This document shows, piece by piece, positions 12,475-46,478 of a stretch of DNA of 64,000 nucleotides. The DNA lies in contig JAPSFT010000004.1 of NCBI GenBank assembly GCA_035063765.1, positions 62,001-126,000 on the forward strand, given 5' to 3'. The notes below the pieces were generated by a model, which saw only the letters and a list, made by a program, of their open reading frames with translations, searched no databases and was not told the DNA's origin. Position 1 is the stretch's first letter, and each line of letters starts with the position of its first letter. The translations under genes and the position numbers were made by a program. The DNA is from Deltaproteobacteria bacterium. GTDB lineage: Bacteria > Myxococcota_A > UBA9160 > PR03.

Positions 12475-14175
<1,701 letters not shown>

Positions 14176-14190
14176 GGGGGAGGGCGGCCG

Positions 14191-15291: not shown

Positions 15292-15341
15292 ACAGGCGCG
15301 CCGCGAACGATTCGAACTCGTAGCGAACGAGGGGGGTTGGC

Positions 15342-24028: not shown

Positions 24029-24073
24029 GCCGTGTGCGTGGATGGATCCAACCGGAGGGGATGGGAGACAGGT

Positions 24074-27634: not shown

Positions 27635-27651
27635 GGAGGAAGGGAGGCGTG

Positions 27652-27987
27652 ATGCGACGGATCGCAACGACGATCGCCGGGCTGGCGCTGGCAAGCGCGC
27701 TCAACGCGTGGCCGGTGGACGCCGAAGAGGTCTCGGGCAACGCGGTGCTCGGCGAGGTGCACCTGGCCGAGGGTGCCGTGGTCCTGGACGGGGATCGCTA
27801 CACGGTGAGCGACACGACGCGGCTCGAGAACGAGCAGGGCGGGGACCTGACGCTGGCCGAGCTTCCGAGCCTGGCCGGTGGGGCCTCGGCCGACGAGGCT
27901 GCCGTCTGGTTCGAGGCGGACGAGCCGACCCGCGACGGGACGCGGCGCCTGCGCCATCTGCGGCTCACGGGTGCGGTGCCGAGGTAG
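27652..27987 (+). CDS. Small exported protein in the PilY2 position
   Basis: 111 residues with a signal peptide (about 1-25, ending AWPVDA). The remainder is mostly beta-strand-like, with the stretch EVHLAEGAVVLDGDRYTVSD and several charged residues. There is no Cys, lipobox or recognised domain. In Pseudomonas a protein of similar size, PilY2, follows PilY1, so this may be a positional equivalent. That rests on place and length only. The ATG at 27652 is preceded by GGGAGGCGTG. It starts 17 bases after pilY1 and is surely in the same transcript. Confidence 0.7.
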   Translation: MRRIATTIAGLALASALNAWPVDAEEVSGNAVLGEVHLAEGAVVLDGDRYTVSDTTRLENEQGGDLTLAELPSLAGGASADEAAVWFEADEPTRDGTRRLRHLRLTGAVPR

Positions 27988-28015
27988 CCGGCCCGCGCGC
28001 CGCAGGGAGGGAGTC

Positions 28016-29038: not shown

Positions 29039-29110
29039 CCCCGGAGCTCCGATGCGCTCCGCCCGCCCGCGCTCGCGCGCTCGCGGATGCCGACTGCCGG
29101 TAACCCTCTC

Positions 29111-30472: not shown

Positions 30473-30601
30473 CCGCCTCTCTTCGGCCGACCCGCGGCCC
30501 ACGCTGAGATCGACGCCGTCCCGGGTCGCCCCGGGGGTGGGGCCTGGCCTGGCAGCCCGGGAGCGTTCCGGCGGCAAGGCTGCCTCAAGTGTCGTTTCGG
30601 C

Positions 30602-30657
30602 CGGACCGATAGTCCCCATCGGCGTGCCGCTCCGACCGTGGGGGACTGATTCGGTCG
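30602..30657. promoter_or_regulatory. Long imperfect inverted repeat in a divergent promoter region
   Basis: GACCGA-T-AGTCCCC (30604-30617) pairs with GGGGACT-GAT-TCGGTC (30641-30656), giving 13 matched pairs with small bulges around a 23-base centre. It lies 24 bases upstream of the small XRE gene and 130 bases upstream of the NtrC-type gene. It could be an operator for either regulator or a leader hairpin. Confidence 0.35.
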
Positions 30658-30680
30658 GGGTGGCAGGGGAGGACCCGAGG

Positions 30681-30941
30681 GTGCCGCGCAACAACGTCCA
30701 GCGTACGCGCGAAGCACTGATGATGAGCAAGGCGGAGCTGGCCCGAAAGGCGGGCCTCTCCACCTTGACGATCGATCGCGTCGAGGCGGGGCGCCCGTGC
30801 CGGCTCGACACCAAGCGAAAGATCCTCCTGGCTCTCGGCAAGCGGGTCTCGGACAAGGACGAGATCTTCAGCGCCGAGGCAGGAGCAGGGGCCCCCCCGC
30901 TCTCGATCACCGCCGTCTCGGAAGGCGATCACGCCCACTAG
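30681..30941 (+). CDS. Small XRE-type regulator upstream of pilM
   Basis: 86 residues. A single helix-turn-helix domain (about 14-58, MSKAELARKAGLSTLTIDRV then EAGRPCRLDTKRKILLALG) is followed by SDKDEIF and an Ala/Gly-rich tail. The compact form without a sensor domain suggests a dedicated repressor or activator of the adjacent pilMNOPQ operon, 26 bases downstream in the same direction (inference). GTG 30681 is chosen because GGAGGACCCGAGG precedes it and because homology-like sequence starts just after. A 13-pair inverted repeat ends 24 bases upstream. Confidence 0.8.
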   Translation: MPRNNVQRTREALMMSKAELARKAGLSTLTIDRVEAGRPCRLDTKRKILLALGKRVSDKDEIFSAEAGAGAPPLSITAVSEGDHAH

Positions 30942-30967: not shown

Positions 30968-32041
30968 GTGCAGATCGTTCCGCGACTTCGCTCGAAGTCC
31001 ATCGTCGGTCTCGACATCGGCTCGTCCTGCGTGAAGGCCGTCGAGGTCGTCCCGCGCGGGGACGGCTTCGAGCTGGCGCACCTCGGGATCGCGCCGCTCC
31101 CGCACGACGCGATCGTCGACGGGGCCTTCCTCAACTCCGGCGCGATCGCCGACGCGATCCGCGAGGCGCTCGGAAAGTCGGGCAGCAAGGCCAAGCACGT
31201 GGCCGCGGCGGTGTCGGGCCACTCGGTGATCGTCAAGAAGATCTCGGTGCCGGCCATGACGGTGGAGGAGCTCGAGGAGAGCATCCGCTGGGAGGCCGAG
31301 CAGTACATCCCCTTCGACGTCAACGAGGTGAACCTCGACTTCGAGGTGATCCAGCACGGCGATGCCGACCGGCCGATGGAGGTGCTGCTGGTCGCCGCCA
31401 AGCGCGACCTGATCGACGACTACGTGAACCTGATCGGCGAGGCCGGACTCACGCCCTCGGTGATCGACGTGGCCGGCTTCGCCGTGGAGAACGCCTTCGA
31501 GGCCAACTACGAGCCGGGCCCGGAGGACGTGGTCGCGGTGATCAACATCGGGGCCCAGGTCACCAACATCAACGTGGTGTCGGGCGGGGTGCCCGCCTTC
31601 ACCCGTGACGTCTCCACGGGTGGCAACCAGTACACCGCCGAAATCCAGCGCGCGCTCTCGATCAGCTTCGACGAGGCCGAGCGGATCAAGATCGGCGAGC
31701 CGTCGGCGCGCGAGAGCCAGGACGTCGTGCCCCAGGAGGTCGAGCAGGCGATGCGCTCGGTCACCAACAACCTGGTGGGCGAGATCGCGCGCTCGCTCGA
31801 CTTCTTCTCGGCGACCGCTGCCGACACCCGGATCCAGCGCCTGGTGCTGGCCGGCGGGTCGGCGCGGGTGCCTGGCATCGACACGGTGTTCCGCGAGCGG
31901 ACGGGGCTCTCGGTCGAGATCCTGAACCCGCTCCACAAGATGATGCCGTCGAACCGCTTCGATCCCGAGTTCCTGGCCCAGGTCGGGCCGTCGCTCGGGG
32001 TGGGTGTCGGCCTGGCGCTGCGGAGGGTGGACGAGTCGTGA
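30968..32041 (+). CDS. pilM: PilM, cytoplasmic actin-like pilus protein
   Basis: 357 residues with an FtsA/actin-like fold. It carries VGLDIGSSCVKAVEV, phosphate-1 type, at the start, INIGAQVTNINVV as phosphate 2 and LVLAGGSARVPGID as the adenosine motif. PilM binds the cytoplasmic N-terminus of PilN and links the alignment complex to PilB and PilC. The GTG start at 30968 is chosen because GAGGAGAGGGGTCC precedes it. It overlaps pilN by four bases (GTGA). Confidence 0.95.
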   Translation: MQIVPRLRSKSIVGLDIGSSCVKAVEVVPRGDGFELAHLGIAPLPHDAIVDGAFLNSGAIADAIREALGKSGSKAKHVAAAVSGHSVIVKKISVPAMTVEELEESIRWEAEQYIPFDVNEVNLDFEVIQHGDADRPMEVLLVAAKRDLIDDYVNLIGEAGLTPSVIDVAGFAVENAFEANYEPGPEDVVAVINIGAQVTNINVVSGGVPAFTRDVSTGGNQYTAEIQRALSISFDEAERIKIGEPSARESQDVVPQEVEQAMRSVTNNLVGEIARSLDFFSATAADTRIQRLVLAGGSARVPGIDTVFRERTGLSVEILNPLHKMMPSNRFDPEFLAQVGPSLGVGVGLALRRVDES

Positions 32042-32679
32042 TCCGCATCAACCTTCTCCCCGTTCGCGAAGCGCGCCGCAAGGCGGGCGTGCGCCAGCAG
32101 ATGATGCTGCTGGCCGCGAGCCTGGTCGGCGCGGTGCTCCTGGCCGGTGTCGTCCAGGTCTGGATGATGGGCCGCATCTCGGCGACGCGCGGGCGCGTGG
32201 CGGCGCTCGAGAAGCAGCTCGAGCAGTTCAAGCCGCAGCAGGAGCAGGTGGCCAAGTTCAAGGCCAAGAAGGCCGAGATCGAGCAGAAGCTCGCGGTGAT
32301 CGAGAACCTCGAGCGCTCGCGCTCCGGCCCGGTCCACATCATGGACGAGCTGGCCTCGCACATTCCCGAACGGGTCTGGCTGAACGACCTGAACGCCGAC
32401 AACGGCCAGATCGCGCTCGGCGGCATGAGCCTCGACAACGAGCTGGTCGCGCTCTTCCTGCGGGCGCTCGACGACTCGCCGTACTTCGCGCGGGTGGAGC
32501 TCGAGTCGACCGAGCTGAAGCTGGTCGACTCGCTCAAGCTCAACACCTTCCAGATCCGTGCGGCGCTCGAGTCGCCCGACCAGCCCTACGGCGAGCAGGC
32601 GCCGGCGGCGGCCGCGCCCGCCAAGGGCCAGCCGGCCAGGAAGCCCCCGGGCCGCGGCGCCGCCGCGGCGGCGCAGTAG
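32038..32679 (+). CDS. pilN: PilN, inner-membrane alignment protein
   Basis: 213 residues. The conserved cytoplasmic peptide IRINLLPVREARRK at the very N-terminus is the PilM-binding motif. It is followed by one membrane helix (about 22-44), a coiled coil (about 48-90) and a ferredoxin-like periplasmic domain. The C-terminus is Ala/Pro/Lys-rich, without structure. It pairs with PilO. The GTG start overlaps pilM. Confidence 0.93.
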   Translation: MIRINLLPVREARRKAGVRQQMMLLAASLVGAVLLAGVVQVWMMGRISATRGRVAALEKQLEQFKPQQEQVAKFKAKKAEIEQKLAVIENLERSRSGPVHIMDELASHIPERVWLNDLNADNGQIALGGMSLDNELVALFLRALDDSPYFARVELESTELKLVDSLKLNTFQIRAALESPDQPYGEQAPAAAAPAKGQPARKPPGRGAAAAAQ

Positions 32680-32692
32680 GAGGAGCCGGGTC

Positions 32693-33370
32693 ATGAACCT
32701 CGGACTCGACCAGATCACGACCAGGCTCGAGGCCTTCACCAAGCTGCCGCGGGCCTACCGGATGGCCGCCATTCCGGTCCTGTGCGCCCTCGTGCTCGGC
32801 CTCTACGGCTTCCTGCTCTACAAGCCGGCCAGTGCCTCGCTGGAGCAGGTCGCGGCCAAGGAGCGCAATCTCCAGCGCCAGGTGAGCGAGGTCCGCGCGA
32901 TCGTCGCCAACCTGGCGGCCTTTGAGCAGGAGCTCTCCGACCTCGAGCAGAAGCTCAAGCTCGCGCTGCGCCAGCTGCCGGACAGCAAGGAGCTGCCGGT
33001 GCTGCTCACCGACATCTCGAGCCTGGGCAAGGACGCGGGCCTCGAGTTCAAGCTCTTCAAGCCGAAGGCGGAGGTCGTGCGCGACTTCTACGCCGAGGTC
33101 CCGATCGAGATCGAGTTCAGCGGCAGCTACCACGACATCGCGCGCTTCTTCGACAAGGTCTCGAAGCTGCCGCGGATCGTGAACGTGAACCGTATGGTGA
33201 TGAAGCTCGCCGATGCCGATACCCAGTCGACGGTGCTGAACGTGAGCGGCGAGGCGACCACGTTCCGGTTCATCGAGCAGCCGGCGGCGCCCGCCCAGCC
33301 GGGTGCGCATCCGGCGGGCAAGGCGCCGCGGGCCGCTTCGGCCGCCCGGCCGCAGGGGGGACGCTCGTGA
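32693..33370 (+). CDS. pilO: PilO, inner-membrane alignment protein
   Basis: 225 residues: a short cytoplasmic part, one membrane helix (about 25-45), a coiled coil rich in Glu, Gln and Leu (about 52-95) and a periplasmic domain with FSGSYHDIARFFDKVSKLPR, a signature of PilO. The tail is Ala/Pro/Gly-rich. It forms a heterodimer with PilN and binds PilP. The ATG follows TAGGAGGAGCCGGGTC and overlaps the pilP start by four bases. Confidence 0.93.
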   Translation: MNLGLDQITTRLEAFTKLPRAYRMAAIPVLCALVLGLYGFLLYKPASASLEQVAAKERNLQRQVSEVRAIVANLAAFEQELSDLEQKLKLALRQLPDSKELPVLLTDISSLGKDAGLEFKLFKPKAEVVRDFYAEVPIEIEFSGSYHDIARFFDKVSKLPRIVNVNRMVMKLADADTQSTVLNVSGEATTFRFIEQPAAPAQPGAHPAGKAPRAASAARPQGGRS

Positions 33371-33930
33371 AGGCATGGGTCCTCGGAGGACTGCTCGCTG
33401 CGCTCGTGCTCGGGCCCGGCTGCTCGCGCGAGAACGCGAACGCGCCGACGGTCCAGGACTACGAGCAGAAGCGGGCCGAGCTGATGAAGCGCTCGAAGGG
33501 CCAGGTGGTGCAGCAGCGCGCTGCCAAGCCCGGCGAGCCGGCCGCGCCGCAGGAGGGGCTCGTCGCCGCCGCCGGCGACTACACCTATGTCGCAGCGCCG
33601 GGCCGCCGCGACCCGTTCCGGTCCTTCATCGAGGACCAGAAGCAGCGGCTCGCGAAGACGGAGCGCGGGCCGCTCGAGCAGTTCGACCTGAGCCAGCTCA
33701 CGGTCGTCGCCGTGGTGTGGGGGACCGGCCGTCCCCGCGCGCTCGTCGAGGACCCGTCGGGCCGGGGCTACGTCGTCCAGGTGGGCACGCCGATCGGCAA
33801 GAACGACGGCTCGGTCACCAGCATCAGCGACAACGCCGTCACGGTCCGCGAGACCTACGTGGACTATCTGGGTGCGCAGACCCAGAAGGAAATCGAGATG
33901 CGCACTCGTTCGACGACCCAGGGAGGGTGA
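33367..33930 (+). CDS. pilP: PilP, pilus alignment lipoprotein
   Basis: 187 residues. Signal peptide with lipobox near LGPGCS (Cys19), a disordered linker (about 20-75) that contacts PilNO, and a small beta domain opening with PGRRDPFRSF, the PilP hallmark. VVAVVWGTGRPRALVEDPSG follows, and the domain docks on PilQ. The GTG start overlaps pilO (GTGA). PilQ starts six bases after its stop. Confidence 0.92.
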   Translation: MKAWVLGGLLAALVLGPGCSRENANAPTVQDYEQKRAELMKRSKGQVVQQRAAKPGEPAAPQEGLVAAAGDYTYVAAPGRRDPFRSFIEDQKQRLAKTERGPLEQFDLSQLTVVAVVWGTGRPRALVEDPSGRGYVVQVGTPIGKNDGSVTSISDNAVTVRETYVDYLGAQTQKEIEMRTRSTTQGG

Positions 33931-33936
33931 GGTCCG

Positions 33937-36294
33937 ATGTTCGCCACCGTTCGCGTTCGCTATCGCATGATCGCCGCAGCCAGCGCCTTTGCTGCGCTGT
34001 GGCTCGGCCACGCGTCCGGAGCGGCTACGCCCTCCGCGACGCCCGATGACGCCGGCGCACCGGCCGTCTCGGCCGCTCCGGCGGCCGCGGCGGGCAGCGC
34101 CGCCAAGACCCTGCTCGCGGTGCGCGCCGAGGCGACGCCGCAGGGCATGCTCGTCCACCTCGACGCGGACGGCGCGCTCCAGGGGGTCGAGAGCTTCACG
34201 CTGAGCCAGCCGGCCCGGCTGGTGCTCGACCTGCCCGGCGTGCAGAGCCAGGTCGCCGAGCAGGTGGTCCGGGTCGAGTCCGGCCCCGTCGAACGGATCC
34301 GGGTCGGCCAGCACCAGGGCAAGGTCCGGATCGTGCTCGACGCCGGCGACGACGCCGGGGCCTTCGCGGGCCACCGGCTCGAGTCGCTGGCGGGGGGCAT
34401 GGTCGTGGCCCTCGGTGGGGCCGCTCCGCAGCCCGCGAGCGCGGCACCGGCCACCGGCGGAACGGCGAGCGGGACCGAGGGCGGCGCCTCCTCGACGGCG
34501 GCAGTGCCCGCGACGGGCGGCGCCACCGTGCGCCAGGTCGCCTACGCCAGGGCCGAGGACGTGGATCGCGTCGTGGTGTCGGCCGACCGCGCCGTCGACT
34601 ACCAGGTGATGCGCCCCGACCCGAAGACGCTGATGCTCGTCGTGCCGGGCGCCACGCTTGCGCCCGACGCGGCCACCCGCGTGGCGCCGGAGGGCAAGGG
34701 CCCCGTCGCGCTGGTCAGCGCATTCCAGCAGCCCGACGCGAAGACGCCCGAGGTCCGGATCGTCGTCGAGCGCGCCGCGGGCCTCGAGCCCCAGGTGAGC
34801 CGCGACGGCCACGACATCGTGCTCGCCTTCGAGCACGGGCAGGCCGCGGCGGCGCTGCCGGTGAACGCCGGTGACAAGGCCGGGAAGAAGACGGCGGCGG
34901 CCCCGGCGCCCGCGGCGGCCAAGGCCGTGGCGGCCGCGTCGCTGCCGGCCAACGCGGCCGAGCCCTCGGCGGCGGCCGTCGAGGGCGGCGTCGAGCCGAT
35001 CGACCAGCTCGACGAGGGCGGCCTGCTCGACGGCAAGGAGTACGTCGGGCGCCGCATCAGCCTCGACTTCAAGGACGTGGACATCCGCGACGTGCTGCGC
35101 CTCATCGCGGACGTCTCCGACCTCAACATCATCGCCGGTGACGAGGTGACCGGGAACGTGACCATCCGCCTCGTCGACGTGCCGTGGGACCAGGCGCTCG
35201 ACGTGATCCTGCTGACCAAGGGCCTCGGCTTCGTGCGGGTGGGCAACGTGCTCCGGATCGCACCGGCCGAGATGCTCAAGGCCGAGGAGGAGGCGCGCCT
35301 GCAGGAGCGCCGGGCCAAGGAGAAGCTCGAGGACCTGATCGTGAAGCTCCAGCCCGTGAACTACGCCAAGGTCGGCGAGGTGGCGAAGCTGGTGAAGCGG
35401 CTCCTCACCGCCCGCGGCACCGTGGACGTGGACGAGCGCACCAACACGATCATCATCAAGGACATCCCGGGCGTGATCGACGAGGCCACCGCGCTGGTCA
35501 AGGCGATCGACTCCCAGACGCCGCAGGTGATGATCGAGGCGCGCATCGTCGAGGCATCGCTCGATTTCTCGAAGGAGATCGGCACCGAGTGGGGCTTCGG
35601 GACCCAGCCGGACGAGGACGAGGACGACTTCACGATCGGCGGAATGCGCCCGATCACCTCGCAGGACAGCCAGTTCCCCTTCAACCAGGCCAACAACGCC
35701 GTCGTGACCAACCCGATCACGCTGAACCCGGCCGGCCTCATGAACCTGGGCGCCTTCCTGCTCGACGACCGCGTCAACGTGGACGTCCGCATCGCGGCGG
35801 CCGAGCTCAACGGCGAGGGCAAGGTGATCTCGAGCCCGCGCGTCGTGACCCTCGACAACCGGGAGGCGCTGATCGAGCAGGGTGTCTCGATCCCGTTCCA
35901 GACCTTCGAGAACGGCGACGCCCAGCTCGAGTTCATCGACGCCGTGCTCTCGCTCAAGGTGACGCCGCACATCACCGCCGACCGCAGCATCATCATGGCG
36001 GTCGAGGTGACGCGCAACGCGCCCGACGAGAGCATCGACACGCCGACCGGCTCGCCGGCGATCGCGAAGAACCAGGCCAAGACCGAGACGCTGGTCAAGG
36101 ACGGCCAGACCCTGGTCCTGGGCGGGATCTACGTGATCGAGAAGTCGGAGAGCTCGCAGCGCGTGCCGGGCTTCTGGAAGCTCCCGGTGATCGGGAACGC
36201 CTTCCGGAACTTCGACAACGAGGACTCGCGGCGCGAGCTGCTGATCTTCGTGACGCCCTCGGTGGTGATGCAGGCCGGCGCCGTCGGCGGCTGA
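33937..36294 (+). CDS. pilQ: PilQ, type IV pilus secretin
   Basis: 785 residues. The outer-membrane ring through which the pilus passes. Order of parts: signal peptide (about 1-30), a first AMIN domain that binds peptidoglycan (about 60-165), an Ala/Gly/Thr linker, a second AMIN domain (about 200-300), an Ala/Lys linker, an N0 domain (RISLDFKDVDIRDVLRLIAD from about 372), an N1 domain (DLIVKLQPVNYAKVGEVAKL from about 467) and the secretin core from about 540 to the end, with VPGFWKLPVIGNAFRN and the final LLIFVTPSVV. The length is normal for two AMIN copies. It closes pilMNOPQ and two hairpins follow. Confidence 0.96.
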   Translation: MFATVRVRYRMIAAASAFAALWLGHASGAATPSATPDDAGAPAVSAAPAAAAGSAAKTLLAVRAEATPQGMLVHLDADGALQGVESFTLSQPARLVLDLPGVQSQVAEQVVRVESGPVERIRVGQHQGKVRIVLDAGDDAGAFAGHRLESLAGGMVVALGGAAPQPASAAPATGGTASGTEGGASSTAAVPATGGATVRQVAYARAEDVDRVVVSADRAVDYQVMRPDPKTLMLVVPGATLAPDAATRVAPEGKGPVALVSAFQQPDAKTPEVRIVVERAAGLEPQVSRDGHDIVLAFEHGQAAAALPVNAGDKAGKKTAAAPAPAAAKAVAAASLPANAAEPSAAAVEGGVEPIDQLDEGGLLDGKEYVGRRISLDFKDVDIRDVLRLIADVSDLNIIAGDEVTGNVTIRLVDVPWDQALDVILLTKGLGFVRVGNVLRIAPAEMLKAEEEARLQERRAKEKLEDLIVKLQPVNYAKVGEVAKLVKRLLTARGTVDVDERTNTIIIKDIPGVIDEATALVKAIDSQTPQVMIEARIVEASLDFSKEIGTEWGFGTQPDEDEDDFTIGGMRPITSQDSQFPFNQANNAVVTNPITLNPAGLMNLGAFLLDDRVNVDVRIAAAELNGEGKVISSPRVVTLDNREALIEQGVSIPFQTFENGDAQLEFIDAVLSLKVTPHITADRSIIMAVEVTRNAPDESIDTPTGSPAIAKNQAKTETLVKDGQTLVLGGIYVIEKSESSQRVPGFWKLPVIGNAFRNFDNEDSRRELLIFVTPSVVMQAGAVGG

Positions 36295-36383: not shown

Positions 36384-38072
36384 ATGTCGGGGGCGACGAT
36401 CTGGCTGGTGGGCGCGATGGGCGCCGGGAAGTCGGCGGTGGGCGCACGCCTGGCCGAGCGCCTCGGCCTCGCCTTCGCGGATGCGGACCTCGAGGTGGAG
36501 CGCACGGCCGGCGCGCGGATCCCGGAGATCTTCGCGCGCGAGGGCGAGGCGGGCTTCCGCGCGCGCGAGCGGCGTGCGATCGAGGCGCTGGCAGGAAGCG
36601 CGGTCGTGGTGGCGCTCGGCGGCGGGGCCATCGCCCAGCCCGGCGCGCCCGAGCGGCTTGCCGCGAGCGGCACGGTCGTCTGGCTGCGCGCGCGCCCCGA
36701 GACCCTCGCGGCCCGGATCGGCGACGCCGCCGGGCGCCCGCTGCTGGCGGGCCTCGACGCGCACGGGCGCCGCGCGCGGCTGCGGGCGTTGCTCGCAGAG
36801 CGCTCGCCCTGCTATGCGACGGCGACGATCGCCGTCGACACCGACGGGCTCGCGCCCGGCGCCGTCGCGGCCCGGATCGCAGCCTTGCTGCAGGGACGGC
36901 CGGAGGGAGCGGAGCGGATGGAAGGGGCGGCCACGGCACGCACGGTCCGGGTGGAGCTCGGCGCGCGGAGCTACGAGATCCACCTGGGGTTCGAGACGCT
37001 CGACCAGGCCGGGCCCGCGATCGCCGCCTGCACGAAGGCGCGCCGCGCGGCGATCGTGACCGTGCCCGAGGTGGGCCGGCGCTACGCGCCGCGGCTCGAG
37101 CGGAGCCTGCGGGAGGCCGGCCTCCGGGTGCGCCGGCTCCTGGTCCCCGACGGCGAGCGCGCCAAGAGCTTCACCTGGGCCCAGCGGCTCTACGGCGCCC
37201 TCCTCGACTTCGAGGCCGACCGCGGCACCGTCGTGGTCGCGCTCGGGGGCGGCGTCGTCGGCGATCTCGCCGGCTTCGTCGCCGCCACCTGGATGCGGGG
37301 CGTGCCCTTCGTCCAGGTGCCGACGACGCTCCTCGCGATGGCCGACGCCAGCGTCGGCGGGAAGGTGGCGGTGGACCTGCCGCGCGGGAAGAACCTGGTG
37401 GGGGCCTTCCACCAGCCCCGCGTGGTCTGGATGGACCTTGCGACCCTGCGCAGCCTGCCGCTCCGCCAGCGCGCCGCGGGCCTGGCCGAGATGATCAAGC
37501 ACGGCGCGATCCGGGACGCGGCCCTCTTCGAGCGCTTCGAGCGCGACGTGGAGGGCGTCCTCGCCCTCGAGCCCGCGCCGACGCTCGACCTCCTCGCCCG
37601 CTCCTGCGCGATCAAGGCGGAGATCGTGAGCCAGGACGAGCGCGAGGCGGGCCTGCGCATGCTCCTCAACTTCGGGCACACCCTGGCCCACGCCGTCGAG
37701 ACCCTGAGCGGGTACCGGCGGATCCTGCACGGCGAGGCGGTGGCGCTCGGGATGGCGTTCGCGGCGCGCCGCTCGGAGTCGCTGGGCCACGCCCCCGCCG
37801 GGACCGCCGATCGCCTGGAGGCCCTGCTCGAGCGGGCCGGCCTTCCCACCCGGCCGCCGGCCTTCCCGCGCCGGGCTTATCTCTCGGCGCTGCGTGTCGA
37901 TAAGAAGCGCACGGACGCGCACGTCCGCTTCGTCGTCTTGCGCGGGATCGGCCGGGCCGACACCGTCCCGCTGACGCCCGCCGAGATCCTGCCGAGGGAT
38001 TTCGGCGCGCGTGCGGTGGGGAGGGGCCGGGCCGGTTCGGAGCAAGGGCCCGCGCGGCGGCGACGAAGGTGA
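36384..38072 (+). CDS. aroK-aroB: AroK-AroB fusion: shikimate kinase and 3-dehydroquinate synthase
   Basis: One 562-residue frame. Residues 1-172 are shikimate kinase: Walker A GAMGAGKS at 10-17, the shikimate-binding DADLEVERTAG and the GGGAI motif. Residues 185-545 are 3-dehydroquinate synthase, an NAD- and metal-dependent enzyme: GGGVVGDLAGFVAATWMRG, the Lys/Glu segment VGGKVAVDLPRGKNLVGAFH, MIKHG and the metal-binding LNFGHTLAHAVE and LHGEAVALGM. These are two steps of the shikimate pathway. ATG 36918 (residue 179), with GGAGGGAGCGGAGCGG before it, could restart AroB alone. The Arg-rich tail adds about 20 residues. The gene follows pilQ, as in many proteobacteria, but a terminator intervenes. 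Confidence 0.92.
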   Translation: MSGATIWLVGAMGAGKSAVGARLAERLGLAFADADLEVERTAGARIPEIFAREGEAGFRARERRAIEALAGSAVVVALGGGAIAQPGAPERLAASGTVVWLRARPETLAARIGDAAGRPLLAGLDAHGRRARLRALLAERSPCYATATIAVDTDGLAPGAVAARIAALLQGRPEGAERMEGAATARTVRVELGARSYEIHLGFETLDQAGPAIAACTKARRAAIVTVPEVGRRYAPRLERSLREAGLRVRRLLVPDGERAKSFTWAQRLYGALLDFEADRGTVVVALGGGVVGDLAGFVAATWMRGVPFVQVPTTLLAMADASVGGKVAVDLPRGKNLVGAFHQPRVVWMDLATLRSLPLRQRAAGLAEMIKHGAIRDAALFERFERDVEGVLALEPAPTLDLLARSCAIKAEIVSQDEREAGLRMLLNFGHTLAHAVETLSGYRRILHGEAVALGMAFAARRSESLGHAPAGTADRLEALLERAGLPTRPPAFPRRAYLSALRVDKKRTDAHVRFVVLRGIGRADTVPLTPAEILPRDFGARAVGRGRAGSEQGPARRRRR

Positions 38073-38083
38073 GGAGGCCGGAC

Positions 38084-38632
38084 TTGGAGCAGGCGGAGGC
38101 CCTGGAGGGCCCGGGACACGCCGGCGTCGTCGACGCCGCGCTGGTGGCGCGCGCCCTGGCGCTGCTCGACCGGGGGCTCACCGCCGACGCGCGCGCGCTG
38201 CTCGCCGGCGCCCTCGACGACGGCGCTGCGGCTCCGGGTGGCGAGCCGGAGGCGCGCGCGGCCGCCGAAGCGGCCTTCGTCCGCCTGCACGACACCGAGC
38301 TCGAGAGCGCCTTCGACGACGCGCACCCCGAGACCGACGCGATGATCGACGCCGACGGGATCGCCTTCGAGGCGATCCTGCGCGCGCGGCTCGACGAGCC
38401 CGAGAGCGTGCCGCTGCCGTCACCGGATTCGCCCTTCCACACCCGCACGATGGCGGACCTGCTCGAGCGCCAGGGCGACCTCGAGAGCGCGCACGTGATC
38501 CGCTCGGCGCTCGGCGCCGCGCCCGCGCTCGCTTCCGCCGACCCCGCGCGGGATGTCGATGCGGCGGCGCGCGCACGAACCATCCAGACCCTCGAGCGCT
38601 GGCTCGCCCGGCTGCGAGGAGGAAACGCATGA
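38084..38632 (+). CDS. Small TPR-like protein
   Basis: 182 residues, helical, Ala/Leu/Glu-rich. An N-terminal helix pair (ALVARALALLDRGLTADARA) and a C-terminal one (TRTMADLLERQGDLESAHVI) fit the tetratricopeptide pattern. A disordered acidic middle lies between them. No signal peptide or membrane helix is seen, so it is presumably cytoplasmic and acts through protein contacts. The TTG at 38084 has GGAGG six bases upstream and is preferred to a GTG at 38069, which has no such site. It overlaps the next gene by four bases. The TPR motif of the larger protein three kilobases on suggests the two act together (inference). Confidence 0.65.
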   Translation: MEQAEALEGPGHAGVVDAALVARALALLDRGLTADARALLAGALDDGAAAPGGEPEARAAAEAAFVRLHDTELESAFDDAHPETDAMIDADGIAFEAILRARLDEPESVPLPSPDSPFHTRTMADLLERQGDLESAHVIRSALGAAPALASADPARDVDAAARARTIQTLERWLARLRGGNA

Positions 38633-39003
38633 ACTTCGAGCCCGTCCTGCGCAGGATGATCGACGGCGTGCCGGGTGCGATCGGCATCGCGCTGATGGGG
38701 AGCGACGGGATCCCGATCGCCGAGCACTACGCACCCGAGGCGGGTGCTGCCGCGGCCGACGGCGAGGTGGCGGCCGCCGGCGTCGAGTTCGGGCGCATCC
38801 TCGACGAGATCCGCAAGGCCTCCGACGCGATCGCGGGCGGCCGCCTCGACGAGGCGGTGATCGGCCTCGGCCGCTTCTGGCTGCTGTTCCGGGTCGTGGA
38901 CGAGGAGCTCTTCGTGGTGGCGGCGCTCGAGCCGCGCGGGAACCTCGGCAAGGCCCGCTTCCTGATGCGCCGCCACCTCCTCGAGCTGCAGCAGGAGCTG
39001 TAG
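38629..39003 (+). CDS. Roadblock/LC7 domain protein
   Basis: 124 residues, one Roadblock/LC7 domain. VLRRMIDGVPGAIGIALMGS then DGIPIAEHY is the strand-turn-strand start, and a long helix (FGRILDEIRKASDAIAGG) and a final strand region FWLLFRVVDEELFVVAALE follow. MglB, the polarity switch GAP of myxobacteria, has this fold and works with a small GTPase. No MglA-like GTPase is in this window. ATG overlaps the preceding stop (ATGA) and GAGGAGGAAACGC precedes it. The domain suggests a regulator of polarity or motility linked to the pili nearby, which is inference. Confidence 0.8.
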   Translation: MNFEPVLRRMIDGVPGAIGIALMGSDGIPIAEHYAPEAGAAAADGEVAAAGVEFGRILDEIRKASDAIAGGRLDEAVIGLGRFWLLFRVVDEELFVVAALEPRGNLGKARFLMRRHLLELQQEL

Positions 39004-39287
39004 GCGCCGCGCGCGCCCGCCGAGCCCCACCCCCTGCCGGCCGCCCGCACCGGGGCCGCCGCAGCGCTGCGCGGCCGGCGCCGCCGCATCGGCGCGCAGC
39101 CGCCCGTGCAACCCGGCGCCGCCGCAGGGGGACGGGGCGCCTCAAGAGCCCCACCGGGCGGCCGATACGTCGCCAGAGGGGAGCGCCCCGCCCGGCGAGG
39201 ATCCAGAGGGGGTCGCCGACGACCCGTGAGGTGGCGCGGGCGGGGGGCCATTGCCGGGCTGCGGCCGAAGCCCCGCGACGAGGACCA
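39004..39287. other. Non-coding gap with weak stem
   Basis: 284 bases between the Roadblock gene and the long TPR gene. One 7-bp stem (GGGGCGC at 39134-39140 with GCGCCCC at 39183-39189) is seen. The frame of the TPR gene is open through this stretch, but its content is Arg/Gly/Pro low-complexity and unlike a protein, so the gene is not extended into it. It may contain a promoter, which could not be located. Confidence 0.35.
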
Positions 39288-42200
39288 GTGGCGGCGATCA
39301 ACAAGCGGAAGATCCTCGAGTCGGCGCAGCGCCACCTCCAGAAGGGCGCGCTCGACAAGGCGCTGGCCGACTACCAGACGGTCCTCCAGGCCGATCCTCG
39401 CGACACCAACGTGCGTCTGAAGGTCGGCGACCTGCTGCAGAAGGCGGGCCGCAACGACGAGGCGATCTCGGCCTACCTGAAGGTCGCCGACCAGTTCCAG
39501 CGCGACGGCTTCGACGCCAAGGCGGTCGCGCTCTACAAGCAGGTCACCAAGATCGACAGCAAGCGGCACGACGTCTACGTGCCGCTCGCCGACCTCTACC
39601 AGCGACTCGGGTTGATGTCGGAGGCGATGGCCGCGCTGCAGACCGCCGCCCAGGCCTGCCAGCGCGACGGCCGCAAGCGCGAGGCGCTCGACCTGCTGCG
39701 ACGGATGGCGAGCCTCGATCCCGCCAACGTCACGAGCCGGCTCAAGGTGGCCGAGCTGCTCGAGCAGGAGGGGCTCGGCGACGAGGCGATGGCCGAGTTC
39801 CGCGAGGCCGCGAGCGAGCTCGAGCGCCAGGGCGACTGGGAGGCGCGCGCAGGGGTGCTCGAGCGGATGGTCGAGCTGCGGCCGGAGCGCGTCGAGGAGC
39901 TCGAAGCGCTCGCCAACACCTGGCTCGAGCACGGCCAGCCGCGCCGGGCGCACGCCTTCGCCCAGAAGCTCGTCGAGGCCGACCCCGCGCGGCCCGACTC
40001 GCACGAGCTGCTGGCGCGGGTGCTCTCCGGCCTCGGCCAGGAGGAGCTCGCGATCGACGCCTTCCGCCAGTGCGCGGAGGCGTGGCGCGAGCGCGGCGAG
40101 GAGGGCCGGGCGCGCGAGATCCTGCAGCGCCACCTGCCGCCGCAGGACTTCGCGGCGCTGACCAGTGCCACCCCGTCGCCCGTGACGGCGACGGCGGGCG
40201 GCACGGCTGCCGCGGCGGAGCTCTTCGGCGCCGCCGGCGAACTCGGCTCCGAGCCGGCGGCGGGCGAAGGGGTCTTCGGGAGCGAGCCCATCGAGGTTGG
40301 TGGGGACGGTGTCGTGGAGCTCGGCGGCGACGCGCCTGCCTTCGCGGGCGACCTGCCGCTCGCGGGCGGCGGGGCCGATCTCGGTGGCGAGCCCGAGCCG
40401 GCGCCCGCGCCCGCAGCGCCGGCGAAGCCGGCGCAGGCCGCGCCGTCCGCCCCGTCCTCGCCGGCCCCCCGCGCGGCCGAGCCCGCGCCCGAGGGCGACG
40501 TCGAGCAGCTCCTGGCGGAAGCAGCGGTCTACGCGCGCTACGGGAAGCACGAGCGGGCGCTCGCCTGTCTCGAGGCCGCGCTCGCACAGGAGCCGGCGCA
40601 CGGCGCAGCGCTCGAGCAGCTCGGGGACGTGCAGGCCGCCGCGGGCGCTCCGGAGCGTGCCGTCGAGGCCTGGACCCGCGCGGCGGAGCAGGCCGGCGAG
40701 GCACGCGACGCCGCGCGCTTCGCCCTGCTGCGCGCGCGCATCGAGGGTCTCGATCCCGCCGCCGCCGCGGCCCTGCACGCGCCGCTGCCCGCGGGCGCCG
40801 CGGCGCCGACGGTCCTCTTCGATCTGGGCCAGACGGGCGGCGTTGACGAGGCGGAGGAGGCGCCCGCCGGCGAGCTCGACGACATCGAGATCGACGTCGA
40901 CGACGTGTCGCTGGACGGCGGCGAGCACGAGCCCGCCCCCGGATCGACCGGCGCCGGCGCCGCGGAGCTCGAGCTCGATCTCGACGACGGCAGCCTGGCG
41001 GCCGTGGAGCCGGCGGGCGCGCCTGCGCACGCAGCGGCCGTGGCGCCGGAGCCCGACCTCGACCTCGATCTCGACGACCGCTCCGAGCCCGCGCCGGCCC
41101 CGGACGATGCGGCGGGCGAGGTCGAGGACGAGATCGTGTTCGACGGCGAGGACGCTGCGGCTTCGCTGCCGGTCCCGGACGACACGGAGCCGCCCGCGGC
41201 ACGCGAGCAGACCTGGGAGCTGCCCGAAGAGGAGCTCGCAACCGCGCCGCCGCACCTGCCCCGGAGCGACGCCGCCGCGGACGTCGATCCAGCCGTACGA
41301 TCCGAAGTGCCTCCGGGCGAGCTGTCGGCGTCGGCGGCACAGCACATCCAGGAGGACCTCGAGGAGGCGGGCTTCTACTTCGACCAGGGCCTGCTGGCCG
41401 AGGCCGAGGCCGTCTACCGCCGGATCCTCGCGCGCGCGCCGAGCCATCCGGGCGCGCTGCTCCGGCTCGGCGAGATCGCCGTGCAGCGCGGCGGCCCGAT
41501 CGCGGTTCCGGCGCCGCTCCCCGTCGCTCCCGAGCCCGCCGCGCCCGCGGTGGCACGCGAGGACGCGCTCGAGGTCGAGCCTCCCGACGCGCTCGACCTG
41601 ACGGCGCCTGCGCTCGACGAGGACGAATGGCCGGGCGAGGTCGCGCCGCCGGTGGAGGCGGAGGACTCGACCGCCAACGTGCTCGCGAGCGGGCCGGATG
41701 CGAGCCTCGACGACACCACGCTGCGTCCGACGCCGGCACCCGCGTTCGCCGTCGCGCCCGCCCCGGAGGCGCCGGTCGCACCCGCTGCGCCGGCGCCCGT
41801 CGCCGTCGCGGCGGCGCCGCGAGCCTCCGAGGAGCCGGAGCTCACCGCGCCCGACCTCCCGCAGGACGACGAGACCGGGGGCGCCGCCTTCGACCTGGCG
41901 GCCGAGCTCTCCGAGGCGCTCGCCGATGCGACTCCGAGCGCCGGCGCCGGCACCGACGACGAGGGCTTCAGCTCGCTCTTCCGCGAGTTCAAGCGCGGCG
42001 TCTCGCAGACGCTCGGCGAGGGCGACGTCGAGACCCACTTCGACCTCGGCATCGCCTACCGCGAGATGGGCCTGCTCGAGGATGCGATCGGCGAGTTCCG
42101 CCACGCACTGGGCTCGCCCGTGCGGCGCCTCGACGCGCTCCAGCTGATGGGCCTGTGCGCGATCGACCTGGGCCGCGGGCAGGACGCCGTCGGCCACCTG

Positions 42201-42803
42201 GAGCAGGCGCTCGCCTCGCCTGACGTGCCGTCCGAGCGCGAGGCGCCACTGCGCTACGAGCTGGGGCGCGCCTACCAGATCCTGCCCGACCGCGTTCGGG
42301 CGCTCGACGCCTTCCATCGCGTGCAGCAGCTCGAGCCCGGCTTCCAGGACGTCGCCGAGCGGGTGGCCGCCCTCGAGCGCGGCTCCGCAGCCGAGCCCGA
42401 GGCGGAGCCTGCGGAGTCGGTCGAGGCCTTCGAGTCCTTCGACGACCTCGTGGCCGAGGCCGCCGAGGACGCGCCGGCGGCACCCCGCTACGAGAGCTTC
42501 GACGACGTGGTCGCGGAGGCGAACCACGAGGACGAGGAGGTCTCCGCCGAGCTCGAGGAGGCGTCGCCGTCCGAGGAGGGCGAGGGGACGGAGCTGCCCG
42601 ACAGCGGCGCCGGCGGATCTCCGGACGACGGCGGAGCCGCGCTCGAGCGCGAGACCGAGGCGGCCTTCCTGGACGCCACGCTCGCGGGCGTCGAGGTCGC
42701 CGAGCCGGAATCCGGTCCGGCACCCGAGCACGCACCCGAACCCCAAACCGTGGAGCCTGTCGCTCCGGTGCAGCGGCGCCGGCGCAAGGTCTCCTTCTTC
42801 TGA
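39288..42803 (+). CDS. Large TPR protein with acidic repeat linker
   Basis: 1171 residues, without signal peptide or clear membrane helix. Residues 1-290 hold about seven tetratricopeptide-type helix pairs (HLQKGALDKALADYQTVLQ, LKVGDLLQKAGRNDEAI, and LADLYQRLGLMSEAM among others). An Ala/Pro/Gly/Glu linker and a second TPR (about 405-490) follow. Residues 530-700 carry acidic, alternating peptides (DIEIDVDD, ELDLDD, DLDLDLDD). A third TPR lies at about 690-735, a long disordered acidic part to about 890, and a fourth TPR block (GEGDVETHFDLGIAYREMG) from about 910-1040. The end contains two copies of ESFDD[LV]VAEA. It is a scaffold-like protein. GTG 39288 follows GAGGACCA. Its partner may be the Roadblock or ExeA-like protein. 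The name and function are not known. Confidence 0.8.
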   Translation: MAAINKRKILESAQRHLQKGALDKALADYQTVLQADPRDTNVRLKVGDLLQKAGRNDEAISAYLKVADQFQRDGFDAKAVALYKQVTKIDSKRHDVYVPLADLYQRLGLMSEAMAALQTAAQACQRDGRKREALDLLRRMASLDPANVTSRLKVAELLEQEGLGDEAMAEFREAASELERQGDWEARAGVLERMVELRPERVEELEALANTWLEHGQPRRAHAFAQKLVEADPARPDSHELLARVLSGLGQEELAIDAFRQCAEAWRERGEEGRAREILQRHLPPQDFAALTSATPSPVTATAGGTAAAAELFGAAGELGSEPAAGEGVFGSEPIEVGGDGVVELGGDAPAFAGDLPLAGGGADLGGEPEPAPAPAAPAKPAQAAPSAPSSPAPRAAEPAPEGDVEQLLAEAAVYARYGKHERALACLEAALAQEPAHGAALEQLGDVQAAAGAPERAVEAWTRAAEQAGEARDAARFALLRARIEGLDPAAAAALHAPLPAGAAAPTVLFDLGQTGGVDEAEEAPAGELDDIEIDVDDVSLDGGEHEPAPGSTGAGAAELELDLDDGSLAAVEPAGAPAHAAAVAPEPDLDLDLDDRSEPAPAPDDAAGEVEDEIVFDGEDAAASLPVPDDTEPPAAREQTWELPEEELATAPPHLPRSDAAADVDPAVRSEVPPGELSASAAQHIQEDLEEAGFYFDQGLLAEAEAVYRRILARAPSHPGALLRLGEIAVQRGGPIAVPAPLPVAPEPAAPAVAREDALEVEPPDALDLTAPALDEDEWPGEVAPPVEAEDSTANVLASGPDASLDDTTLRPTPAPAFAVAPAPEAPVAPAAPAPVAVAAAPRASEEPELTAPDLPQDDETGGAAFDLAAELSEALADATPSAGAGTDDEGFSSLFREFKRGVSQTLGEGDVETHFDLGIAYREMGLLEDAIGEFRHALGSPVRRLDALQLMGLCAIDLGRGQDAVGHLEQALASPDVPSEREAPLRYELGRAYQILPDRVRALDAFHRVQQLEPGFQDVAERVAALERGSAAEPEAEPAESVEAFESFDDLVAEAAEDAPAAPRYESFDDVVAEANHEDEEVSAELEEASPSEEGEGTELPDSGAGGSPDDGGAALERETEAAFLDATLAGVEVAEPESGPAPEHAPEPQTVEPVAPVQRRRRKVSFF

Positions 42804-42811
42804 GGTCGCCC

Positions 42812-44002
42812 TTGGAGCACCTGGAACGCTTCGGCCTGGAGCGCGAGCCCTTCCGCAACGAGCCGCAGCCGGACTTCTGGTTCGAGAGCCGTGGCGTCTC
42901 CGAGGCGAAGGCGCGGCTCCTGCGCTGCCTGCGCCAGGGCAAGGAGCTGTCGGTGCTGTGCGGCGAGCTCGGCTCCGGCACCACGACCCTCGCGCGGCAC
43001 GTGCTCGACGAGCTCGATCCCGATCGCTTCGAGGTGGGGCTCCTGGTGGTCGGCCGCGGCGTCGAGCCGGCCTGGCTGCGTTCGGCCGTGGCCCGCCAGC
43101 TCGGGGTCGCCGAGCCCGCCGGCACGCGCGCGGAGGCCCTGCGCGAGCTCTACCTCCACCTCGTCGAGCTGCGCAAGGAGGGGCGTCGCGCCGTGGTCGC
43201 GATCGACGAGGCGCAGGCCCTCGGCGTCGAGGCGCTGGCCGAGCTCGTCGCGATGCTGAACTTCGAGCACGACGACGAGCGCCTGCTCTCGGCGCTGCTG
43301 GTCGGCTCGCTCGAGCTCGAGCGCATGCTGGGCCGCGAGCCGGCGCTGCTCGGCCGCTGCGAGCTGCGCGTGCGCATCGAGCCGCTCGCCGGCGAGGAGG
43401 CGCGCGCCTACCTCGCACACCGGCTGGTCGTGGCCGGCGGCGACCCCGCGCTCTTCGCCCCCGAGCTCGCCGACGTGATCGCCGCGCGCGCCGGGGGTCT
43501 GCCGCGGCGCATGAACGCGCTCGCCGACAACGCGCTCTTCGAGGCGCACCTCGCGCGCCGCGAGTGGCCGGAGCCGGCCGACGTCGAGCGCGCGGCGCGG
43601 GACCTGCCGTGGGCCCAGAGCGGCGCCGACACCCTCTCGGGCGTGTCGCCCGCCGCGCTCGGCCTCGCGCCGCATGCACCCGCCGCGCCGGAGCTCGGCG
43701 ACTTCGACCTCGACGCGGAGCTCGGTCCCGAGCTGAGCGGGGGCGAGGGCGCCCTCCACGCAGGTGTCTCGCGGGCTCACGTCTCGCGGCCGGCACGCGC
43801 CTTCGACCGCGAGCCGCACGAGGAGGAGCTGCAGGCCGAGCTCGCCACCACCGGGCCCGACCACACCGCTCCGGGCGCCTGGAGCCGCCCGCGCCGGGCA
43901 TCGCTCGACGACGAGGTGCTCGGCACCGCACCGCCGCGTCTGCCCGACGAGTCCGAGATCGACGGCCTCTTCGTGGACCTGGTCGACGAGGAGAAGGACT
44001 GA
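42812..44002 (+). CDS. ExeA/GspA-like AAA protein with altered Walker A
   Basis: 396 residues. An ExeA-type ATPase domain (about 1-265), opening with LERFGLEREPFRNEPQPDFW. The P-loop GELGSGTTT (51-59) has Thr57 where the invariant Lys should be. Walker B VVAIDEAQ (Asp132, Glu133) is normal. A disordered acidic tail (about 270-396) ends in EIDGLFVDLVDEEKD. There is no membrane helix. The frame is intact, so the change is not mere decay; it may bind ATP weakly or act as a structural partner. ExeA/DamX-like genes often follow aroKB in proteobacteria. The TTG start at 42812, nine bases after the TPR stop, puts it in the same operon. Confidence 0.8.
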   Translation: MEHLERFGLEREPFRNEPQPDFWFESRGVSEAKARLLRCLRQGKELSVLCGELGSGTTTLARHVLDELDPDRFEVGLLVVGRGVEPAWLRSAVARQLGVAEPAGTRAEALRELYLHLVELRKEGRRAVVAIDEAQALGVEALAELVAMLNFEHDDERLLSALLVGSLELERMLGREPALLGRCELRVRIEPLAGEEARAYLAHRLVVAGGDPALFAPELADVIAARAGGLPRRMNALADNALFEAHLARREWPEPADVERAARDLPWAQSGADTLSGVSPAALGLAPHAPAAPELGDFDLDAELGPELSGGEGALHAGVSRAHVSRPARAFDREPHEEELQAELATTGPDHTAPGAWSRPRRASLDDEVLGTAPPRLPDESEIDGLFVDLVDEEKD

Positions 44003-44057: not shown

Positions 44058-46445
44058 ATGCGCCCCCTCCTGCTCGCTCTCGCCCTCCTCGCAATCGCCG
44101 CGGCAGCGCCCGCGCAGGACGTCCTGCCGCGGCCCGCGCCGCCCTTCACCGGCACGATCGAGAAGACCCTCGCGGGCTCCGTTCCCGAGTACCCGGAGCG
44201 GCCCCAGGCGCCCGCGGGCGCGCCGAACGTCCTGGTCGTGCTGATCGACGACGCCGGCTTCGGCAACCCCTCGACCTTCGGCGGGCCGGTCCGGACGCCG
44301 ACCCTCGACCGGCTCGCCGCGCAGGGGCTCCGCTACAACCGCTTCCACGTGACGGCGCTCTGCTCTCCGACGCGCGCCGCGCTGCTCTCCGGCCGCAACC
44401 ACCACCGGATGGGCTTCGGCATGATCGCCGAGACCCACAGCGGCTTCCCGGGCTACGACGCACACTGGCCGCGCGATGCCGCCTCGCTGGCCCGCATCCT
44501 GCGCGACAACGGCTATGCGACGGCCGCGATCGGCAAGTGGCACCTGACCCCCGACGACGAGCAGGGGCCCGCCGGCCCCTTCGACCGCTGGCCCAATGCG
44601 CTCGGCTTCGACTACTTCTACGGCTTCCTGGGCGGAGAGGACTCGCACTGGGACCCCATGCTGGTCGAGAACCAGACGACGCTCGGCGTCCCGACCGGGA
44701 AGGGCTTCTACCTGACCACGGCGCTCGCCGACCACGCGATCGCCTGGATCCGCGACCAGAAGAGCCAGGCGCCCGAGCAGCCCTTCTTCCTCTACTTCGC
44801 GACCGGCGCGAGCCACGCCCCGCACCACGTGGCCCAGGAGTGGGCCGACCGCTACGCCGGGAAGTTCGACGCCGGCTGGGACGCGCTGCGCGTGGCCACC
44901 TTCGAACGCCAGAAACAGCTCGGTGTGATCCCGCCCGACGCGGTCCTGACGCCTCGCCCCGACGCCTTCCCGGCCTGGGACCCCCTGCCGGCCGAGGTCA
45001 AGAGGCTCTACGCGCGGCAGATGGAGGTCTACGCCGGCTTCCAGGAGTGCACCGATCACGAGGTGGGCCGCGTGGTCGGGGCGATCGAGGAGCTCGGCCT
45101 CGGCGACGACACGCTCGTCGTCTACCTCTTCGGCGACAACGGCGCGTCGATGGAGGGCACCGAGTCCGGCAGCTTCAACGAGATCACCACGCTGAACGGG
45201 ATCCCGCTCACGACCGCGCAGCAGCTCGAGGCGATCCACGCCTACGGGGGCCTCGAGGTGTGGGGCGGGCCGCGCACCGATCCGCACTACGCGGCCGCCT
45301 GGGCCTGGGCCGGCAACACGCCCTTCCAGTGGGGCAAGCAGGTGGCCTCGCACCTCGGCGGCATCCGCAACGGCATGGTGGTCTCCTGGCCGAAGCGCAT
45401 CACCGACAAGGGCGGGCTGCGCAGCCAGTTCACCCATGCGATCGATCTCACCCCGACGATCCTCGAGGCCGCCGGCGTGACCGCGCCGGCCGTCGTCGAC
45501 GGGATCCCGCAGCAGCCGATCCAGGGCACCAGCTTCGCCTACACCTTCGACGACGCCGCGGCTCCGGAGCGTCACACCCGCCAGTACTTCGAGATGATCG
45601 GCAACCGCGCGATCTACGAGGACGGCTGGCTGTGGAGCTGCCGCATCGACCGCATCCCGTGGCGCTTCGATCCCGCGACGATCGCGCGGCTGGCGCCCGG
45701 CACCTGGGACCCCGACGAGGACCGCTGCGAGCTCTACGACCTGGAGCACGATTTCTCGCAGAGCCGCGATCTCGCCGCCGAGCACCCCGACCGGATGGCC
45801 GCCCTCGAGGCGCTCTTCTGGAGCGAGGCCGAGCGCAACCAGGTGCTGCCGCTGCTCGGCGGCATCGCCTTCCTGTGGGGGATCCGGCCGCCCGCCGATC
45901 TCGCCCCGCAGCGGGTCGTCCTCCAGCCCGGCGTCGAGAACCTGGCGCCCGGGATGACCCCGCCGATCTACAACCGCTCGTTCGCGATCGAGGCGGACCT
46001 CGAGGTTCCGCACAACTGGTGTCTCGGCCCGGTCTGCAGCGGCGCCGAGGGAGTCATCGTCGCCAACTCGAGCTTCCTCGGCGGGTTCTCGCTCTACGTG
46101 CTGGGCGGGCGGCTCCGCTACACCTACAGCTTCCTGGGCCTGAAGATCGACGACCTCGTGGCCTCCGAGGCGCTGCCCGAGGGTAAGGTGAAGGTGCGCT
46201 ACGAGTTCACCGCCGACACGCCCCGGAAGCTTGCGACCGGCGGCACCCAGCGCCTCTTCCTCGACGGCAAGCAGGTCGCCGAGGGCCGGCTCGAGCACAC
46301 CGTGCCGCTGCGCTTCTCGGGCTACGCCGGCCTCGACGTCGGCCGCGACAACGGGCTTCCGGTCTCGCCGCACTGGATGTACTACCTGCGCCGGCCGTTC
46401 CCCTTCGCGGGCACGATCGAGCGCGTGGTCTTCGACCTGCAGTAG
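44058..46445 (+). CDS. Arylsulfatase, formylglycine type
   Basis: 795 residues. The signal peptide (about 1-19, APA|QD) sends it to the periplasm. It hydrolyses sulfate esters. The sulfatase signature C102-S-P-T-R106 gives the Cys that a formylglycine-generating enzyme oxidises, and the catalytic metal ligands are in VVLIDDAGFGNPSTFGG. GKWHLTP is the second family signature. The C-terminal 150 residues form a beta-rich part. It needs a maturase, which is not in the window. The ATG at 44058 has no strong ribosome binding site; a GTG three bases earlier is an alternative. It is convergent with the other sulfatase, with 33 bases between the ends. Confidence 0.88.
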   Translation: MRPLLLALALLAIAAAAPAQDVLPRPAPPFTGTIEKTLAGSVPEYPERPQAPAGAPNVLVVLIDDAGFGNPSTFGGPVRTPTLDRLAAQGLRYNRFHVTALCSPTRAALLSGRNHHRMGFGMIAETHSGFPGYDAHWPRDAASLARILRDNGYATAAIGKWHLTPDDEQGPAGPFDRWPNALGFDYFYGFLGGEDSHWDPMLVENQTTLGVPTGKGFYLTTALADHAIAWIRDQKSQAPEQPFFLYFATGASHAPHHVAQEWADRYAGKFDAGWDALRVATFERQKQLGVIPPDAVLTPRPDAFPAWDPLPAEVKRLYARQMEVYAGFQECTDHEVGRVVGAIEELGLGDDTLVVYLFGDNGASMEGTESGSFNEITTLNGIPLTTAQQLEAIHAYGGLEVWGGPRTDPHYAAAWAWAGNTPFQWGKQVASHLGGIRNGMVVSWPKRITDKGGLRSQFTHAIDLTPTILEAAGVTAPAVVDGIPQQPIQGTSFAYTFDDAAAPERHTRQYFEMIGNRAIYEDGWLWSCRIDRIPWRFDPATIARLAPGTWDPDEDRCELYDLEHDFSQSRDLAAEHPDRMAALEALFWSEAERNQVLPLLGGIAFLWGIRPPADLAPQRVVLQPGVENLAPGMTPPIYNRSFAIEADLEVPHNWCLGPVCSGAEGVIVANSSFLGGFSLYVLGGRLRYTYSFLGLKIDDLVASEALPEGKVKVRYEFTADTPRKLATGGTQRLFLDGKQVAEGRLEHTVPLRFSGYAGLDVGRDNGLPVSPHWMYYLRRPFPFAGTIERVVFDLQ

Positions 46446-46478
46446 CGCCGCGCCGGAGGCCACGCGCCGCGGGCGCGC

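Follow-up and report, generated by a model that had tools for sequence, protein, structure and literature searches.

In the 64,000-nucleotide stretch of DNA analysed here (the window), from a Myxococcota bacterium, the type IVa pilus locus ends in four genes behind pilMNOPQ and aroKB, and these very probably constitute the MglC–SgmX branch of the MglA polarity system. The identity of mglC, of sgmX and of an mglBA pair elsewhere in the genome, the conserved gene order and the conservation of the interaction surfaces known from Myxococcus xanthus (for the MglB-facing surface of MglC, in part) are established by sequence comparison, and what is new is a hint that the ExeA-like protein encoded by the last gene may be physically tied to both SgmX and MglA. 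The genes concerned are the following (positions in the window):

30968..36294, plus strand: pilM, pilN, pilO, pilP and pilQ, for the type IVa pilus alignment complex and secretin (reading frames; order kept in class loci, tblastn)
36384..38072, plus strand: aroK and aroB, with housekeeping functions, separating the cassette from the pilus operon (reading frames; conserved order)
38069..38632, plus strand: small TPR-like gene, 187 aa, GTG start (alignment of 13 relatives)
38629..39003, plus strand: mglC (Roadblock/LC7), 124 aa (phmmer to M. xanthus MglC structures)
39288..42803, plus strand: sgmX, TPR protein of 1171 aa, GTG start (NCBIfam NF052243; reciprocal best hits)
42812..44002, plus strand: gene for an ExeA-like AAA_22 protein of 396 aa, TTG start, orthologue of MXAN_5765 (Pfam AAA_22; model)

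The layout agrees with the preliminary description, which had reported four genes, "mostly overlapping or closely spaced", behind the pilus operon and aroKB: all four reading frames are present on the plus strand, with the pilus operon and aroKB upstream. The start of the small gene and the stop of aroB overlap by 4 bases, as do the start of mglC and the end of the small gene (the latter overlap is of the ATGA type), while 284 bp separate mglC from sgmX and only 8 bp separate sgmX from the ExeA-like gene. Past the cassette, a sulfatase gene (plus strand) and a gene for an alkyl sulfatase of the metallo-beta-lactamase fold (minus strand) stand end to end (44058-48494). Further upstream, positions 12487-16553 and 24032-30910 hold pilB, pilT, a PilC-like gene, two histidine kinases, PilY1 and a sigma-54 response regulator on the minus strand; PilB scores above its cut-off, and pilT and the PilC-like gene come after pilB. 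Since pilB, pilT, the PilC-like gene, the histidine kinases and PilY1 are found in the window, the pilus machinery and the MglC–SgmX genes form one locus. Two further PilB-like ATPases, encoded on other contigs of the genome (C16 and C7 of G000), fall under the PilB cut-off.

Gene order was compared by tblastn in 20 loci of the window's class, as far as the contigs reach. The order pilM-Q, aroK, aroB, small gene, mglC, sgmX, exeA is kept in these loci with exceptions, namely those that lack a detected aroK, aroB, small gene or exeA and one (L045) in which pilM-P lies downstream on the other strand. The neighbours are thus conserved across the class and, for pilM-Q, mglC, sgmX and exeA, also in M. 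xanthus. In some class loci, 0.6-1.6 kb separate mglC from sgmX, with aroQ- and lplA-like frames recognised by eye; such frames were seen in L044, L045, L041 and L050, and none in the window. In other Myxococcota, efp and accBC sit in the same gap. Note also L132, a contig recorded as Comamonas sp. KCTC 72670: its pil/sgmX locus is of the Myxococcus type and is placed next to M. xanthus on the tree, and the record is probably mislabelled.

The Roadblock gene is identified as mglC, encoding a Roadblock paralogue distinct from MglB. The only significant solved structures matched by its product are those of M. xanthus MglC (7ct3/7cy1, E 5.9e-12, phmmer), with no MglB among the solved-structure matches; the call of a Roadblock protein is therefore confirmed through a crystal structure, although Pfam gives no match up to E 0.1. 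The same match argues against the "MglB type" proposed earlier, as does a genuine mglB-mglA pair found at another place in this genome, downstream of recR (L005), whose products hit the M. xanthus structures with E 1.4e-64 (MglB) and E 5e-103 (MglA); the MglB reading was rejected on both grounds. The protein stops at the Roadblock fold after 124 aa and has no C-terminal helix extension of the MglB type. The gene was detected in 73 of the 91 class genomes. In M. xanthus, MglC contacts RomR through a KRR interface (K104, R106, R110) and MglB through an FDI interface (F25, D26, I28) (PMC10329633), and the counterparts of both, together with the conserved blocks of SgmX, are located as follows:

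38704..38712, plus strand: MglC D26-G27-I28, MglB-facing FDI patch (alignment with M. xanthus MglC)
38950..38970, plus strand: MglC K108, R110 and R114, corresponding to M. xanthus K104/R106/R110, RomR-facing KRR patch (alignment)
39297..40097, plus strand: N-terminal TPRs of SgmX, the pilus-activating region in M. xanthus (blastp, 41% identical over 267 aa)
41868..42374, plus strand: C-terminal TPRs of SgmX, corresponding to M. xanthus 821-1000, the MglA-GTP-binding end (blastp, 37% identical)

All three KRR residues are invariant in the alignment with M. xanthus MglC. In the FDI patch, D26 and I28 are kept and Phe25 is replaced by Ser, a change that counts against the preferred reading; among class relatives, the D and I are mostly kept and the first residue varies.

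The giant TPR gene represents a divergent form of sgmX, with function at such a distance assumed. That it encodes a TPR protein was correctly recognised at the outset (Pfam TPR_19, E 1.4e-27), and its best NCBIfam model is SgmX itself (NF052243, E 1.6e-86), with an E-value about 60 orders of magnitude better than that of the next family. The score of 292 bits lies far below the curated cut-off of 1800, and the protein is therefore called a divergent SgmX homologue rather than an equivalog member; since this cut-off is reached in 0 of the 141 genomes sampled across the phylum, the model seems to be fitted to near relatives of M. xanthus. Searches in both directions agree: M. xanthus SgmX matches only the giant TPR gene in the window's genome, and the window protein retrieves sgmX first in M. 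xanthus, the N- and C-terminal blocks being co-linear in the two proteins (blastp). In M. xanthus, SgmX is needed for type IVa pili (PMC7519303, PMC7668184), and its C-terminal part binds MglA-GTP (PMC7668184).

The small gene that precedes mglC has no family match in Pfam or NCBIfam. An alignment of 13 class relatives of its product reveals TPR-like helices, a middle motif D-x-E-L-E-x-A-F and a conserved C-terminal block, ATLERWLxNLR. The predicted structure is all-helical and of low confidence (pTM 0.27), too uncertain for a structure search. Most class members share its ATGA overlap with mglC, and the protein probably serves as an adaptor that is produced along with MglC.

As MglC and SgmX are identified and the gene order is conserved, the earlier guess of a role in pilus placement or polarity is well founded by homology, in agreement with the published genetics of SgmX and MglC in M. 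xanthus. By analogy with that organism, in which MglC acts in polarity and from which the mechanism of the three proteins is known (PMC7519303, PMC7668184, PMC10329633), MglA-GTP at the leading pole would bind the C-terminal TPRs of SgmX and free SgmX for the pole, where its N-terminal TPRs would switch on pilus extension; MglC would bridge RomR and MglB at the lagging pole and so keep MglA out.

The ExeA-like protein belongs to AAA_22 (Pfam, E 8.9e-19). In the structural model, an AAA+ domain (aa 1-267, pLDDT >90) is followed by a disordered linker of about 100 aa and a C-terminal helix, the latter modelled with a pLDDT of about 57-62. Three short features bear on its possible role:

42962..42985, plus strand: degenerate P-loop GELGSGTT of the ExeA-like protein, with Thr at the Lys position (alignment)
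43949..43993, plus strand: C-terminal helix of the ExeA-like protein, aa 380-394, containing EIDGLF (model; MglB tails; background count)
42774..42800, plus strand: basic C-terminal tail of SgmX, RRRRKVSFF-COOH, of the class [IV][SGP][FY]x (tail survey)

The loss of the P-loop Lys, noticed already in the preliminary description, is real, though limited to the genus: only the window and a same-genus relative (GEVGSGTS) have lost it, and it is kept in all other class members examined. The loss was accordingly dismissed as a feature of the system. The Walker B motif DEAQ is kept in the window protein, and in this genus ATP turnover has probably been lost, and the protein would act as a scaffold. 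By both sequence profile and fold, MuB and TnsC are among the nearest solved relatives of the AAA domain.

It is tempting, although we consider it rather doubtful, to regard the MXAN_5765 family as a hitherto overlooked component of the MglA effector complex that clamps the tail of SgmX and docks on MglA. The ExeA-like protein would then be a AAA+ clamp of the MuB/TnsC kind that grips the extreme C-terminus of SgmX, much as TnsC holds TnsB by a C-terminal hook of 15 residues (PMC9371665). The C-terminal helix of the ExeA-like protein would occupy the MglA pocket that receives the Ct-helix of MglB, and SgmX, ExeA and MglA would act as one unit. The MglB helix binds MglA in a pocket away from the nucleotide (PMC6785124, PMC11016934) and can be replaced by a helix of RomR (PMC6785124). 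Its core (DIDxLF) reads DIDNLF or DIDKLF, and the ExeA helix reads EIDGLF in the window and EIDRYL in M. xanthus. Of 44 ExeA proteins, 34 have the pattern [DE][ILV]D.[LFYM][FLMV], also present in MglB, within their last 28 residues, and none of 975 background ORFs has it within the last 25, counts to be read in the light of a motif defined after looking and of rough background gene calls.

The second pattern concerns SgmX, which ends on the [IV][SGP][FY]x tail in 45 of the 47 loci with ExeA in the genome, against 1 of the 49 others. Three of these genomes (L126, L131 and L133) have the tail with no adjacent exeA, their exeA, a true orthologue, lying at another place in the genome (E 1e-111 to 4e-119); in 33 genomes without an adjacent exeA, the best match elsewhere is no better than 6e-26. 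The SgmX proteins of L126, L131 and L133 keep a KISYx tail and carry an acidic motif just before it. Exceptions to the rule are L054 and L055 (class family f12), in which ExeA adjoins an SgmX devoid of the basic tail, and L158, which has the tail and in which no ExeA was found. Where ExeA is missing, the SgmX terminus is often acidic and MglB-helix-like (e.g., DDVDAAFDDLMGDD), one strict pattern being found in the last 25 residues in 19 of 49 cases without ExeA and in 0 of 47 with it. A reading of the SgmX tail as a PDZ ligand was given up, since position -2 is often occupied by Gly or Pro. Among the literature searched, we found no description of either the helix or the tail pattern.

On the SgmX tree, ExeA and the tail change about four times each, which leaves 2 to 4 independent pairs, too few to reach significance, and the raw Fisher value of 1e-23 for the association ignores kinship and should not be used. 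With so few independent changes, descent alone could explain the association. We therefore give about an even chance to the ExeA-like gene being a passenger, in which case exeA and the SgmX tail would be old features, physically unconnected, that one branch (Kofleriaceae/Sandaracinaceae-like genomes) lost jointly by descent, and the tail would bind something else, say FrzS or the pilus machine. The sign test, which is not significant, and the three loci that break the tail rule are in keeping with such a passenger, as is the report that inactivation of MXAN_5765 in M. xanthus causes no S-motility defect (PMC7668184). It fits less well with the retention of the tail in three genomes with an unlinked exeA, with the position of exeA directly after sgmX in two groups that lie far apart on the tree, the window's class and Myxococcaceae, and with a motif common to ExeA and MglB that was absent from the background.

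It is improbable that the ExeA-like protein is instead a secretion or secretin-assembly ATPase of the ExeA/GspA or DamX type, serving pilus or secretin biogenesis rather than polarity. Membership of AAA_22, proximity to pilQ-aroKB and an earlier annotation of MXAN_5765 as a putative Sec system ATPase (PMC3983030) speak for it, but the model contains an AAA domain, disorder and a short helix and neither a transmembrane nor a peptidoglycan-binding part, the gene comes after sgmX and not after pilQ, and the P-loop is lost in the genus. The DamX/ExeA comparison made at first was thus a loose one, sound as to the AAA_22 domain and not as to the transmembrane or SPOR parts. As for a polarity system unrelated to Mgl and so far undescribed, a small coupled TPR gene with no named family could be cited in its favour; the MglC and SgmX identities, the mglBA pair in the genome and the M. 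xanthus synteny make it barely credible, and for two of the four genes they refute it. The MglC–SgmX branch thus stands as the preferred reading of the cassette, with the role of the ExeA-like protein in it as a tentative addition.

The cassette shows that the MglC–SgmX module belongs firmly to the type IVa pilus locus of a Myxococcota class well outside the studied myxobacteria, and its divergent sequences mark which surfaces matter. Were the link to ExeA to hold, a gene left aside because no phenotype was seen would become a candidate regulator, the activation of pili by MglA and SgmX would gain a testable piece, and a short MglA-binding motif would be common to MglB, ExeA and SgmX. Among the literature searched, MXAN_5765 is named only in PMC3983030 and PMC7668184.

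Comparison with known systems places the cassette as follows. The likeness to MuB/TnsC-type AAA+ ATPases lies in the AAA domain, and TnsC recognises a C-terminal hook of its partner; differently from these proteins, there is no transposon context in the window, and we draw an analogy of partner recognition only, with no claim of membership. In Bdellovibrio bacteriovorus, bd2492-bd2495 encode, together with tamAB, a polar TPR protein of the MglA pathway that binds MglA and is a reported homologue of MXAN_5766 (PMC3983030, PMC7519303), and the synteny of MXAN_5766-5763 with bd2492-2495 was published in 2014 (PMC3983030). However, the B. bacteriovorus TPR protein is short (353 aa), its operon is without an ExeA-like gene and its genome without mglB, whereas no tamAB adjoins sgmX in the window.

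The closest counterpart is the locus of M. xanthus (L149), which reads pilM-Q, lipoprotein, mglC, efp, accB, accC, sgmX (MXAN_5766), ExeA-like (MXAN_5765) and TamB-like. Before mglC, the window has the coupled small TPR gene, unrelated to the lipoprotein of M. xanthus; nothing stands between mglC and sgmX, where M. xanthus has efp-accB-accC; the P-loop of ExeA is degenerate in the window and intact in M. xanthus; and the ExeA-like gene is followed by a sulfatase gene rather than by a TamB-like gene. Although the preliminary description knew of "no described system with this exact set", M. xanthus carries pilMNOPQ, mglC, sgmX and the ExeA-like gene in the same order, and the set is therefore not new; an undescribed system was ruled out by this order together with the match to the SgmX model of NCBIfam. 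The likeness extends to the proteins themselves, the N- and C-terminal TPRs of SgmX, the RomR-facing surface of MglC and two of the three residues of its MglB-facing surface being conserved between M. xanthus and the window.
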